A stretch of DNA of 64,000 nucleotides from an uncultured Bacteroidales bacterium. Lineage in GTDB: Bacteria; Bacteroidota; Bacteroidia; Bacteroidales; P3. The notes under the pieces are model-generated. The model had not been told where the DNA came from and ran no database searches. It was given only the letters and a program-made list of their open reading frames with translations. Shown here piece after piece: positions 1-34,684 of the stretch. Position numbers and translations under genes: made by a program. The first letter of the stretch is position 1. Every line of letters starts with the position of its first letter. Location: contig CAJOIV010000003.1 in NCBI GenBank assembly GCA_905234665.1, positions 1 to 64,000 on the forward strand, read 5' to 3'.

Positions 1-3000
1 AGGTGTGCGTGTTGGTAGTCACCGTGACGGTGTCGTAGTCCTGGCCGTCGGTGCAGACCACGCGGTAGCCCATGGCGCCCGTCACTGCTGTCCAGCTCAG
101 GGTCACGCTGTTGAAGGTCACGTCGCTCGAGGCGAGGCCCGTGACAGACTCGCAGGTCGCGGCGGTGAACTGCACCGTGTCGCCCCATTCGCCCTCGATG
201 TTGGAGGCGTCGCCGCAGAGGGCGCGGATGGTGGCGTTGTAGGTCACGCCGGCCGTGAAGCCGCTGACCGTGGCGGGGATGCTGGGGACGCTGTAGAGGG
301 AATCCCAGGTGCTGTTCCACACGAAGATCTCCCAGGCCGTCTCGTTGCCGGCAGGCAGCCAGGCGAAGGTGGCCGTGGCGTTGGTCGTGCCAATCACGCC
401 GAAGGTGTCGGGTGCCAGGCAAGGCAGGCTGTCGGTGGTGAAGGTCGTGGTGACCCAGTCGGAGTAGCCGAGGGTGTCAGCCGTGCAGTCCTGACGCACA
501 CGCAGCTGGTACGGCGTGGCGGGCTGCAGGCCGGTGAAGGTGTAGGTCGTGGCGGTGACAGGAATCTCAACACCCCAGTCGGTGGCCGAGACAGGCTTGA
601 TGGCAACTTCGTAGTCCGTGCCGTTGCCGGTCCATGTCATCGTCGCGCTCTGGTAGGTACCCGTCGTCGAGGTGATGACAGGCGGACGGCAAGTGGCAGC
701 GCCGCCGCAGGAATAGAAGCGGAGGTCGCCGACATAGCTGCCCGAGCCGGAAGAACTGGCGCTGGGGCTGGTGATGCTGATGGGACCGCTGTCCTGATAC
801 ATGTACCGGGTGTGGATGCCGGTGGTGTTGTGGACCTGGAAGGAGGCACCAGAACTCCAGCTACCGTGGTCACGCTTCATGGCGAAGAGCACGTTGCTGT
901 GGCCGTCCCAGGTGAAGTTGCTGTCGAAGCTGTGCAGCTGCCAGTCAGCCGTGGTGTAGTTCATGTTGCGGTCATCGACGACCTTCACGAAGCGGTGCGT
1001 CGTCGTGTCGGGCAATATCATGCTGCTGAGGCTGGTCTCCGGCACATTGGCCATGTAGATGGTGATGTGGGTAAAGTAGTTACCCGTACTGCTCGTGGAG
1101 GGCTTGAAGGCGAAGGCGCTGATGTCGCCCTGGATGTCGGCGAACTGCGCCGAGTCGATGAGGGTCTGGACGTAGGTGTAGTTGTAGGTGCTGTAGCCCA
1201 TGGGAGCGTAGCTGCTGGTGCTGGTGCTCATGGTGCTGTCCCAGCTCTCGACGATGATGGCGTTCTCGCACATGGCGGTCATCAGCGTGGTGGGACCTGC
1301 CCAGGTGCCGGTGTCGGTAGCAGAGCAGATGGGACGCACGTAGATGTCATAGTTGGTCAACGTGTCGAGGCCAGTGATGGTGGTGGGGTGCGAGGTGACA
1401 ATCACGCGGGTTGCGGCAGAGCTTCCGAAGGTGTGGCCCTGGAGGCCATACTCAATCTCCCATGCCGTAGCCGTGGACTGGTCGGTCCAGTCGACATCGA
1501 TCGATGAGGTGGAGGCACCCGTAGAGGTGATGCCCAGCACCGGTGCGCAGGTGGGGATGTAGGTGACCTCGATGTTGTCGAGGTAGTGGTAGCTGTAGTA
1601 GGTGGAGGTGGAGGTGGTGTAGTAGTTGCGGAAGGCGATGATGCGGCTGTTGCCCGTGTAGGTGCTGAGGTAGACGGTGGTCTGCACGTGCGTGCTGCTG
1701 GCCGACGGGGTGACATCCTGGATGGGCACGAAGGTGTTGCCTTCCATCACGCCGATCTCAAGACCGTAGTAGGCGGAGGTGGTGTAGTTCCAGAAGGAGA
1801 TCTGCAGGCTGTCGAGAGGCACGCTCATCGGCGGCAGCATGAAGTAGCCGACACCATAGAGCTTCAGCGAGTAGTTGCCACTGTGTGCGTAGGTCGACGA
1901 GCTGTAGACCTGGGGCAGGTAGCTGCCGGTCTGGTAGGAGGAGGTACCCGTCATGATGTAGTTCCAGCAGGGGACATAGGAACCGGTGGGAAGGGCGTCG
2001 AAGTTCTCGGTGTAGGGCACCGCGACGGCCACACAGGGCGTGTGGTAGTTCTGGGTGTAGTACATGCTGGTGTCGCCAGCGCCGCAGATGGCACGGATGG
2101 TCACTGTGTAGTCGCTGTTGGGGGTGAGACCCGAGAAGGTGTGGGCGGGCGTGTAGACAATCACCGAAGTGGTGTCAATCGTGACTTCCCATTCCATCTC
2201 GCTGCCACCGGCCGTCCAGGTGAGGATGATACTGTCGGAGGTGACACCGGCAGAGACGTTCTGAACCGGGGGGCAGGTGTTGCGCTGCAGGCTGACATTG
2301 TCGATGGCTCCCGGAGGCATGGTGCCCACGGAACCGTCGTTGTGCCAGAAGAAGACCATCCTGTAGATGCCCGGCGTGGTGATACGGAAAGTACCCATAT
2401 TGTTCTGCCAAGTAGAATAAACATTCATTCTGCTGGAGTTGGAGAGGTCGACAATGGCGCCGGGGACGGGAGTGCCGTCAGCCTGTGCGAAGGTGGCATC
2501 GCCAGCCGTCGGGGTGAAGGTGGCGGGCATGAGGGCGGCACGCATATAGTCGCAGCAGCTCTCGCCGTAGGCCAGCCAGTCGTAGGAGTAGGAATACTCG
2601 CCCGTGTCGGTGAGGTTGAAGTCACGATAGGCATAGACGTTGCTGGTCGCAGTGATGGTGTAGGAGTGCGTCGTGCCGAGGTCGTTGGAGATGTAGAGGG
2701 CGTGGGTACCGCCGTTGTTGGTGGCTGTGCCGACATACCAGGCATTGGTCTGCTCGCCGTTGATGAGATCCCAGCCATTGAGGCCCGTGCCTTCAAAGTT
2801 GCAGAAGTACGGCACCGTGGCGGGCAGTCCGGCGAGGGTGGTGAAACGGGTGCTGATGGCCATGCCGGTGTCGCCGGTGCAGATGCTGCTGACGCTGACA
2901 TAGTAGGTCGTGCCCGTGTCAAGGCCGCTCAGGATGACCGTCGAGTCGGTGGTGACGAATGAGTTGGCGGCATTGCCGGGGGTGAAGAGCACCGTGTCGT

Positions 3001-32448: not shown

Positions 32449-33126
32449 ATGCGCCTCGACATCCTCACCCTCTTCCCGAACATGATGACGATGTTCTTCG
32501 AGGAATCCATCATGAAAAGGGCCCAAAAGAAAGGCCTCGTGGAGGTGCATTTCCACGACCTGCACGACTATTCCCTGACCCGCTACGGGTCGGTGGACGA
32601 CTACCCCTACGGCGGCAGTGCAGGCATGGTGATGGCCGTGGAGCCTCTGGCCAACTGCATCGAGGGACTCCAGAAAGAACGCACATACGACGAGATTATC
32701 TATACCGCCCCCGACGGCGAGATGCTCAGCCAGCCGATGGCCAACAGCCTCTCGCTGAAGAAGAACCTCATGATACTCTGCGGCCACTACAAGGGTGTGG
32801 ACGAGCGCGTGAGGGAACATTTCATCACGATGGAAATCTCCATAGGCGACTATGTCCTCACGGGTGGCGAACTGGCGGCAGCCGTCATTGCCGACACCGT
32901 GGTGCGTCTGGTTCCCGGCGTCATCGGCGACGAGCAGTCGGCCCTCGGCGACTCGTTCCAGGACGGCCTTGTGGCGCCGCCGGAATACACCCGTCCCCCC
33001 GAGTTCCGGGGCTGGAAAGTCCCCGATGTCCTCCTCAGCGGCAACCACGCCAAGATAGAGCAATGGCGCATGGAACAGGCCATCGCCCGCACCAAGGAAC
33101 GCCGTCCGGGCCTCCTGAAAGACTGA
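32449..33126 (+). CDS. trmD: tRNA (guanine-N1)-methyltransferase TrmD
   Basis: The 225-residue SPOUT enzyme has the characteristic L-T-L-F-P start, [19 protein letters not shown] and [11 protein letters not shown] motifs that form the AdoMet-binding knot. It methylates G37 in tRNAs reading CNN codons and prevents frameshifting. In many bacteria it lies with rimM, rpsP or rplS; here it is followed by a lipoprotein and a radical SAM gene. Confidence 0.96.
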
Positions 33127-33156: not shown

Positions 33157-33609
33157 ATGAAGAAGATTGTTCGTACTGTATGGATTGGCGCATTGTCGGG
33201 ACTGGCATTCCTGACCGCCTGCAATGGTCCCAAAGGGCTCTCGCGCCAGGAGCGCAAGCAACTCATCAAGGAGCGCGACCACATCCAAGAGATACTCAAG
33301 GCTCGGGAGAGTTCCTGCGTCTACGGCTCGCCCGAAATCCTCGACAGATACTCAGCCCAGACCTACCGCCTGATGAACCAGCTCGACTCCATCAACGCGA
33401 AACTGGGGCAGGACGTGGACCTCGCGAAGAGTGCCCGCCGTGTCGAACTGCAAGAACGCATTGCCGAACTCAGGGCTGTCATACGGGAACGTGAAGGCTC
33501 CTGCGTCTACGGCTCGCCCGAGGTTATCGAAGAGTACAGCCGGGAGACCAACAGACTCCGCACAGAGGAGGCCGAGGCTGTGAAAGAACTGAGGGAACTC
33601 AACCAATAG
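33157..33609 (+). CDS. Small lipoprotein with duplicated CVYGSPE motif, probable partner of the adjacent radical SAM enzyme
   Basis: The 150-residue product has a lipoprotein signal ending in L-T-A-C (C22). The mature protein is a charged, helical, coiled-coil-like duplication with a 62-residue period. Each half ends in S-C-V-Y-G-S-P-E (C54-E60 and C116-E122) followed by an acidic helix. There are no other cysteines beyond C22. It ends one base before the radical SAM gene. From memory, Bacteroidota rSAM/lipoprotein pairs (TIGR04133/TIGR04134) have lipoproteins with a Y-G-[ST]-P motif. This one appears to be a variant with two internal motifs rather than a member of the usual Ig-like type. It may be the substrate of the enzyme; no modification can be shown from sequence. 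Confidence 0.7.
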   Translation: MKKIVRTVWIGALSGLAFLTACNGPKGLSRQERKQLIKERDHIQEILKARESSCVYGSPEILDRYSAQTYRLMNQLDSINAKLGQDVDLAKSARRVELQERIAELRAVIREREGSCVYGSPEVIEEYSRETNRLRTEEAEAVKELRELNQ

Positions 33610-33610
33610 A

Positions 33611-34684
33611 TTGAAGATAGGTTTCCATAAAAGGGTGATGCTGGAGCTGAACCGTGCGGTGCTGCAGAAACGCATCGACGAGCACGAGTTGCACCAGCTG
33701 TTCTGGGAATGCACGCTGCGCTGCAATCTCAACTGCCGCCACTGCGGGTCGGACTGCCGGATGCTCTCGGAAAAGGACGACATGCCGCTGGAAGACTTCC
33801 TGCGGGTGCTGGACGAGGTGCGCACCCATCAGGACCCCGCCAAAGTGATGGTCATCACCACCGGCGGCGAACCCACCATGCGCAGCGACCTGGCCCACTG
33901 CGGCGCGGAAATCACCCGTCGCGGATTCGTGTGGGGCATGGTGTGCAACGGCATGCTGCTCTCGCCCGAGAGACTCGACGAGTTTGTCACCGCAGGGCTG
34001 AAAAGCATCGCCGTGAGTTTCGACGGCTTCGAGGAAGACCACAACTGGATGCGCGGAAACCCGCAGAGCTACAAGAACGTGCTGCGGGCCGTGGAGGGGA
34101 TGAAACAGCACCCGGGGCTGACGTGGGATGTCATCACCTGCGTCAACCAGCGCACAATCAAGTACCTGCCGCAGTTCCGCGACTACCTCATCTCCTTGGG
34201 CATCAGCCGATGGCGACTCTTCACTGTGTTTCCTTCGGGCCGTGCCGCCAATGACCCCGACATGAAAATCTCCAACGCCCAGCTCGTCGAGTTGATGGAA
34301 TTCATCAAGCAGACCCGCCGAGAGGGGAATATCCGTGCCGACTACGGCTGCGACGGCTTCCTTGGAAGCTATGAGGGCGAGGTGCGCAACCACTACTACT
34401 CGTGCAGTGCCGGCATCAATGTCGCCTCGGTGCTGGCCGACGGCTCCATCTCGGGCTGCCTCAGCATCCGCAGCGACTACCATCAAGGAAACATCTATCG
34501 GGACAGTTTCTGGGAGGTGTGGCAGAACCGTTTCGGAGTCTACCGCGACCGCCGCTGGATGAAGACCGGCCAGTGCAAGCATTGCGCGATGTGGCGCTAC
34601 TGCCAGGGCAACGGCATGCACCTGCGCGACGGCGAGGGGCGGCTGCAGATGTGCCAATACTCCATGCTGAACGAGACCCATTGA
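33611..34684 (+). CDS. Radical SAM/SPASM enzyme of the rSAM/lipoprotein type
   Basis: The 357-residue enzyme starts at TTG 33611 (M-K-I-G-F-H-K-R); an ATG ten codons later is possible but family N-termini favour the longer form. The 4Fe-4S motif is C38-N-L-N-C42-R-H-C45, flanked by extra C34 and C49 (E-C-T-L-R-C and G-S-D-C). T-T-G-G-E-P is the SAM-binding GGE motif. The C-terminal part has SPASM-like cysteines (Y-Y-S-C-S-A-G, S-G-C-L-S-I-R, G-Q-C-K-H-C-A-M-W-R-Y-C and Q-M-C-Q-Y) for auxiliary clusters. The wording closely resembles the rSAM/lipoprotein-system enzymes (TIGR04133). It probably modifies a peptide or protein; the lipoprotein just upstream is the obvious candidate. It is last in the plus-strand run, before a terminator. 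Confidence 0.85.
   Translation: MKIGFHKRVMLELNRAVLQKRIDEHELHQLFWECTLRCNLNCRHCGSDCRMLSEKDDMPLEDFLRVLDEVRTHQDPAKVMVITTGGEPTMRSDLAHCGAEITRRGFVWGMVCNGMLLSPERLDEFVTAGLKSIAVSFDGFEEDHNWMRGNPQSYKNVLRAVEGMKQHPGLTWDVITCVNQRTIKYLPQFRDYLISLGISRWRLFTVFPSGRAANDPDMKISNAQLVELMEFIKQTRREGNIRADYGCDGFLGSYEGEVRNHYYSCSAGINVASVLADGSISGCLSIRSDYHQGNIYRDSFWEVWQNRFGVYRDRRWMKTGQCKHCAMWRYCQGNGMHLRDGEGRLQMCQYSMLNETH

Follow-up and report, generated by a model that had tools for sequence, protein, structure and literature searches.

A helical lipoprotein with two predicted YGSP turns and its adjoining TIGR04133 radical SAM enzyme: a candidate protein-modification unit in Bacteroidales

Results

A lipoprotein gene directly precedes a radical SAM gene

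The window analysed here is a 64,000-nucleotide stretch of DNA (positions 1-64,000, forward strand) of contig CAJOIV010000003.1, from an uncultured Bacteroidales bacterium (assembly GCA_905234665.1). Within it, trmD (32449-33126) is followed by a lipoprotein gene, a gene for a radical SAM enzyme and an opposite-strand aminotransferase gene that was named from its own sequence (Table 1). The lipoprotein begins with MKKIVRTVWIGALSGLAFLTAC and contains three cysteines in all (C22, C54 and C116), the last two of which open a pair of CVYGSPE motifs spaced 62 residues apart. This motif is not due to chance, because none of 20,000 shuffled versions of the mature protein carried two YGxP sequences or one CVYGSPE. 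The enzyme reading frame opens at TTG 33611, one base past the lipoprotein stop codon, and this earlier start is favoured because the residues 5' of ATG 33638 resemble those in homologous enzymes.

Carrying both a Radical_SAM and a SPASM domain, the enzyme scores 558.9 bits against TIGR04133 (cut-off 425), a family annotated as a hypothetical equivalog, and its model (pLDDT 93.4) matches the folds of anSME, BlsE, PqqE, SkfB and SuiB. Counting from ATG 33638, the SPASM cysteines at residues 256, 274, 313, 316, 322 and 339 are invariant in 83 enzymes, as is a Cys at residue 238, just ahead of the SPASM region. A preliminary description of this DNA had pointed out the lipidated C22, the single Cys in each CVYGSPE, the 62-residue spacing and a SPASM-type gene of the rSAM/lipoprotein type one base downstream, and the reading frames and the TIGR04133 score bear it out on each of these points.

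The lipoprotein reaches no curated cut-off in Pfam or NCBIfam. Of the two profiles named in the preliminary description, TIGR04133 recognizes the enzyme, but TIGR04134 gives no match to the lipoprotein at E<=1 (curated cut-off 39.8), which rules out membership, and this place is likewise absent from the matches of a TIGR04134 search of the same genome. A YGxP downstream of the lipobox, in a gene beside a TIGR04133 gene, is a feature that the protein has in common with TIGR04134, not a sign of membership. With its helical body, its several motifs and its lack of a TIGR04134 match, the architecture is unlike that of the usual partner, as had been proposed. A search of the open-licence literature found no paper on TIGR04133, TIGR04134 or this lipoprotein. 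We regard the pair as a real, conserved enzyme-substrate system in which the enzyme is of a known family and the lipoprotein family is without a profile model.

Three TIGR04133 enzymes over the cut-off are encoded in this genome, each with a different lipoprotein directly upstream, so that three parallel lipoprotein/enzyme sets exist within one genome. On contig C4 (locus L001), an enzyme gene (313-1398, minus strand) is accompanied by a gene for a protein over the TIGR04134 cut-off (1492-2046, minus strand) with a single motif, MYGVP. On contig C33 (L005), a lipoprotein (987-1475) with CYGTM directly at its lipobox Cys precedes the enzyme (1483-2646). A wider conserved gene neighbourhood can be dismissed, since trmD, M23, recA and other neighbours are mostly missing round relatives (TrmD in 3 of 84 loci), and comparing the neighbourhoods at these 84 loci revealed no third partner gene.

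Table 1. Features of the lipoprotein and enzyme genes, with positions in the window
Feature	Coordinates	Strand	Basis
Substrate lipoprotein (putative), 150 aa, two YGSP turns, four-helix body	33157..33609	+	ORF, alignment, AlphaFold2 model
Signal peptide (residues 1-21) and lipidated Cys22	33157..33222	+	Sequence
Site 1, CVYGSPE (residues 54-60), turn between helices 30-52 and 59-82	33316..33336	+	Sequence and model
Site 2, CVYGSPE (residues 116-122), turn between helices 89-114 and 121-149	33502..33522	+	Sequence and model
TIGR04133 radical SAM/SPASM enzyme, TTG start, alternative ATG 33638	33611..34684	+	ORF, profile, model
CX3CX2C radical SAM cluster motif, CNLNCRHC	33722..33745	+	Sequence; Cys invariant in 83 enzymes
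SPASM region	34403..34654	+	Pfam domain; Cys invariant in 83 enzymes

Fold and conservation of the lipoprotein

The AlphaFold2 model of the lipoprotein (mean pLDDT 86.1, with residues 1-24 below 50) consists of four helices, in agreement with the helical body foreseen in the preliminary description. The first and third turns hold the motifs, and turn 2 (residues 83-88) is at the opposite end, so the two motif turns are predicted to share one end of the helical bundle. Turns 1 and 3 are plausibly directed away from the membrane, given the N-terminal anchor. A fold search with this model against solved structures gave 0 matches at E<=0.001.

At E<=0.001, 920 of the 992 candidates from a protein database qualify as relatives and make up the close family; the best 120 of the 920 were examined. 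C-x-Y-G-[ST]-P is present twice in 14 of these 120, the window protein included, and once in the other 106; the first site reads AVYGSPE in 98. Many of the longer relatives among the 120 also have, close to the C-terminus, a third stretch that resembles LYGxP but has no Cys. An alignment of 38 rows shows Y118, G119, P121, E122 and P59 to be invariant, and Y56 and C116 to be kept in at least 90%. The C-V-Y-G-S-P-E motif was expected to be conserved as a whole, and this holds for Y, G and P but not for Cys, which is poorly kept. The Cys two positions before the Tyr of site 2 is nevertheless retained by most homologues. In the same 38 rows, which cover this lipoprotein family alone, the signal-peptide columns are 90% conserved on average versus 60-79% in the body outside the motifs, and the signal peptide is more conserved than any body segment except site 2. 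Such conservation would fit a role in enzyme recognition, in which the signal peptide may serve as a leader.

Linked, unlinked and arrayed lipoproteins

Among 295 genomes drawn from the window's order, the lipoprotein occurs in 8 and TIGR04133 (threshold E<=1e-80) in 66, and in all 8 genomes that have the lipoprotein it lies directly before the enzyme. The other three genomes of the draw that belong to the window genome's family have neither. Seven other enzymes beside helical lipoproteins are 67-86% identical to the window enzyme, whereas the remaining 75 of 83 are at most 55% identical.

A second sample of 77 loci was obtained from a scan of named genomes, many of them from ruminant and horse samples; 76 are titled Bacteroidales or Bacteroidia and one Candidatus Limimorpha equi, and five coincide with loci from the order-wide draw. 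The enzyme is in cis at 66 of the 77 (64 by rule within the fetched stretch, with L138 and L139 at its edge), and at 11 loci the lipoprotein has no adjoining enzyme. Eight genomes of these lone loci encode an enzyme elsewhere that is 80-87% identical to the window's, on another contig in the case of L167, L174, L177 and L181; two hold only a 46% identical TIGR04133 enzyme, partnered by a CYGAP protein, and one holds no TIGR04133 enzyme at E<=1e-80. The co-occurrence of motif protein and enzyme, which the preliminary description had proposed as a check, is complete in the order-wide draw and frequent in cis in the second sample, but it breaks down in the last three genomes. Their loci (L171, L172 and L176), which are without a close enzyme, count against strict co-occurrence, although missing contigs are a possible cause. 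A shikimate-kinase-like gene, so named from its sequence, follows the lipoprotein in 7 of eight lone loci examined, and at L171, L172, L174, L175, L177, L181 and others the lone lipoproteins before this gene are short and carry YGSP.

Arrays of two to six YGxP genes upstream of a single enzyme occur at 15 distinct places. This count was taken after removal of two repeats (L185 is the same place as L138, and L186 the same as L139) and three chance cases, L140, L143 and L147, whose second genes encode glycosidase-like lipoproteins of more than 700 aa with one YGxP. The array at L139 consists of six lipoprotein genes and 12 motifs, that at L138 of five lipoproteins plus one signal-less ORF and 11 motifs; the array motifs include CVYGPP, VLYGSP, CYYGPP and EIYGPP. 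Signal-less ORFs lie directly before the TIGR04133 enzyme at L136 (4431-4706) and L138 (5862-6131, equal to L185 1205-1474), and have an acidic part that resembles a leader, together with ATYGCP or GVYGCP. These small ORFs resemble RiPP precursors; for the one at L185, 3 homologous proteins were found and no wider family.

YGxP is common to the partners of TIGR04133 enzymes

The neighbourhoods of all 83 TIGR04133 matches in the order-wide draw were inspected. A same-strand upstream ORF with YGxP is present at 70 of the 83 enzymes versus 1-13 of 83 for 15 decoy patterns, the highest of which is YGxL (13/83). Thirteen enzymes are without an upstream YGxP ORF: L049, L086 and L102 are at contig ends with fewer than 310 bases upstream, L069, L093 and L105 have the variants AAYGTF, CYGTM and CYAP, and one of the 13 is the third set of the window genome (CYGTM).

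A stricter signal filter kept 68 partners and left out 15 of the 83 enzymes. Among these 68, 27 long and 8 short proteins have the motif after the lipobox, 25 have the lipid Cys directly before YGxP, and 8 are helical. The residue before Tyr varies by partner type (E, M, K, A, L, N, V or C), and a Cys two positions before Tyr is found at 8 of 15 helical sites versus 5 of 65 other partner motifs. Judged from these sequences, TIGR04133 partners differ in their bodies and have X-Y-G-x-P in common, while the Cys is not constant. Elsewhere, at L197-L204 and L193-L196, lipoproteins of 64-128 aa with ACYG[ATSV]P at the lipobox precede a second type of TIGR04133 enzyme, and outside Bacteroidota, plasmid pTS1 of the spirochaete Treponema saccharophilum (L211) encodes a TIGR04133 enzyme together with a lipoprotein of the TIGR04134 family (SCYGMP).

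Likely kinship with spliceases

PlpXY is described as excising tyramine from XYG, a loss of about 135 Da (C8H9NO), to leave a ketoamide (PMC10533398), XYG being defined as the site motif of PlpX (PMC10533398, PMC11002830). MYG and LYG are the sites that it uses in nature, LYGLPI is the sequence of a tag derived from PlpA2, and PlpXY also works at internal positions in proteins (PMC10533398). Two further papers state that the XYG core permits several events per precursor (PMC10373908) and describe spliceotide products as protease inhibitors (PMC11117315, PMC10373908). The window lipoprotein has XYG in the form of VYG, twice.

PlpX appears to belong to TIGR04103, to judge from IPR026482 (PMC11002830) and from its Nif11 precursors. 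The window enzyme scores 121.4 bits against TIGR04103, below the cut-off of 725, and its scores for AhbD, TIGR04053, NirJ2 and TIGR03913 are about equal to this; since the families score alike, the NCBIfam ranking is not decisive as proof of kinship with PlpX. A tblastn search of plasmid records lists TIGR03913, Agathobacter and Nostoc enzymes (111-136 bits) as the best matches next after TIGR04133 members, and among the listed matches TIGR04053 reaches at most 100 bits and MftC at most 84 bits. In Nostoc sp. C057, an enzyme annotated as nif11-class peptide radical SAM maturase 3 adjoins a PlpX-type precursor with a Nif11 leader that ends in ALYGLPPELF. MYGTG occurs in a small ORF that precedes the Agathobacter enzyme, and of six DUF1843 peptides next to TIGR03913 enzymes, three have MLYGGA, KPYGVA or QPYGAG and the other three have MYM or YA forms. 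TIGR03913-type enzymes also lie with several DUF1843-like peptides at L205 (828-1251, 1435-2865), L208 and L209, and these loci are possibly another splicease-like group.

A first tree of 33 rows, which included a long-branch distant SPASM protein of the window genome, left the deep forks unresolved. For the second tree, of 32 rows, this protein was dropped as a long branch; the outgroup comprised six rows (TIGR04053, MftC and AhbD-like, the AhbD row being below its family cut-off), and PqqE rows were sought and none found. In this second tree, TIGR04133 is itself a well-supported group, and a branch with support of 100/99 separates TIGR04133 and the Nostoc, TIGR03913, Tropicibacter and Agathobacter enzymes from the 6 others. 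An AU test does not reject two other arrangements: TIGR04133 grouped with TIGR04053 and AhbD, which fits less well (p-AU 0.064), and TIGR04133 grouped with only TIGR04103 and TIGR03913 (p-AU 0.096). The pattern G[FY]x[GSAN]x[YFW][ED] is found in 15 of 20 TIGR04133 rows, in 5 of 6 rows of the Nostoc/TIGR03913/Tropicibacter/Agathobacter group and in 0 of 7 others. Kinship of TIGR04133 with PlpX-type enzymes is likely, but not proven.

Discussion

A candidate mechanism and its alternatives

The gene pair, the motif, its association with the enzyme and the multi-gene substrate sets of relatives are matters of observation, and we believe that they are best explained by a two-gene protein-modification unit. 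Splicease-like chemistry is the most likely chemistry for such a unit, and we give it an even chance. The enzyme would modify each X-Y-G-x-P of the prelipoprotein (V-Y-G-S-P, twice) while this protein is still in the cytoplasm. Tyramine excision at each YG would yield alpha-keto amides, and the modified protein would then be exported and lipidated at Cys22. Through the helical hairpins, both modified turns would be exposed at one end of the bundle, plausibly the one distal to the membrane, as a double electrophilic display that could act, for example, against proteases. One modified site per motif, as the preliminary description had suggested, is probable.

The splicease reading is favoured by the presence of YGxP in helical, Ig-like, short and lipid-Cys-adjacent partners alike, at frequencies well above those of the decoys, and by a residue before Tyr that varies between partner types, as XYG allows. 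The Nostoc sp. C057 precursor beside its maturase, the tblastn order, the 100/99 branch, the counts of the enzyme sequence pattern and the RiPP-like YGCP ORFs at two array loci point the same way. The reading is weakened, however, because PlpX works with PlpY, and the window ORF list has no PlpY-like gene between or beside the pair; because TIGR04103 is not clearly nearest by NCBIfam, the first tree is unresolved and the grouping with TIGR04053 and AhbD survives; because TIGR03913 substrates are without P and 13 of 83 enzymes are without an upstream YGxP ORF; and because most homologues retain, for no evident reason, the Cys at -2 in site 2.

A serious alternative, to which we assign a lesser but appreciable probability, is that YGxP is modified without excision, by a C-C, C-O or cyclophane-type crosslink, by hydroxylation or by epimerisation at Gly. 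The enzyme has the fold of SPASM enzymes that modify peptides, the P next to YG is conserved in TIGR04133 partners although it lies outside the published XYG core, and TIGR04103 is not singled out by its score. Yet a crosslink partner is not obvious, because no second invariant side chain stands beside Y, G and P across partner types, and the substrate motif and the tree lean towards the splicease group. Another alternative, put forward in the preliminary description, is that each C-V-Y-G-S-P-E forms a Cys-Tyr or thioether crosslink with Cys as its essential half. It would suit both the 14 of 120 proteins with Cys at both sites, the window protein included, and the retention of C116. It is at odds with the comparison of relatives: most of the best 120 have a single C-x-Y-G-[ST]-P and an AVYGSPE first site, L118-L120 read AAVYGSPE at both repeats and L122 reads AAVYGSPE and ASVYGSPE, in each case beside an 87-88% identical enzyme, and Cys is rare at this position outside the helical clade. 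On conservation, Cys is ruled out as part of the modified site, and we consider such a crosslink very improbable. This argument rests on the best 120 relatives and the partner survey because counts of Cys at the 77 loci are skewed: of the two patterns used to fetch these loci, one had SC or AC before VYGSPE.

It is also conceivable, but unlikely, that YGSP is a structural helix-turn with Pro as the N-cap and that the enzyme acts elsewhere or is unrelated. Both motifs are placed exactly at turns in the model, but YGxP recurs in partners with Ig-like or short bodies, immediately behind the lipid Cys, and in the two signal-less ORFs that precede an enzyme gene, and the enzymes beside helical lipoproteins form an identity group of their own.

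Extending the splicease reading to the whole family, we tentatively propose, with more doubt than confidence, that the TIGR04133 family consists of spliceases that act on surface lipoproteins. A single enzyme in rumen-type Bacteroidales would serve tandem (up to 6 upstream genes, 12 motifs) and unlinked helical lipoproteins displaying ketoamide turns on the cell surface as multivalent, protease-directed warheads, and the conserved signal peptide may double as a recognition leader. If true, the splicease link would provide a testable chemistry for many TIGR04133 members in Bacteroidales (66 of 295 genomes), and gut and rumen bacteria would carry backbone-edited, electrophilic surface proteins. 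The arrays, and the new lipoprotein family as a whole, would also be a source of substrates with several sites for an enzyme that edits proteins.

Comparison with known systems

DAG-RiPPs (DybH/DybA) resemble the window pair in that the peptide substrate of a metalloenzyme enters the lipoprotein pathway, and Bacteroidota are among their hosts (PMC12636315). They differ in using an MNIO enzyme rather than a radical SAM enzyme, and in their C-terminal CPACGMG motif and short peptides; the main text of PMC12636315 contains neither the term radical SAM nor rSAM. The TIGR03913/DUF1843 system (GDL motif system) has related SPASM enzymes and several peptides with LYG or PYG near the N-terminus, but its substrates are short, cytosolic helical peptides without a lipobox or YGxP, some having LYA, MYM or MYA instead. 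The PlpX splicease likewise has an XYG site with variable X and several sites per substrate, and XYGxP is found in the PlpA2-derived tag and the Nostoc precursor; its substrates, however, are Nif11/NHLP leader-core peptides and it works with PlpY, whereas the window substrate is a signal-peptide lipoprotein. With the TIGR04133/TIGR04134 system, the pair has in common a clear TIGR04133 enzyme, a lipoprotein gene directly upstream and YGxP after the lipobox, but the window lipoprotein is helical and has two internal sites, and its relatives occur in arrays and as unlinked copies.
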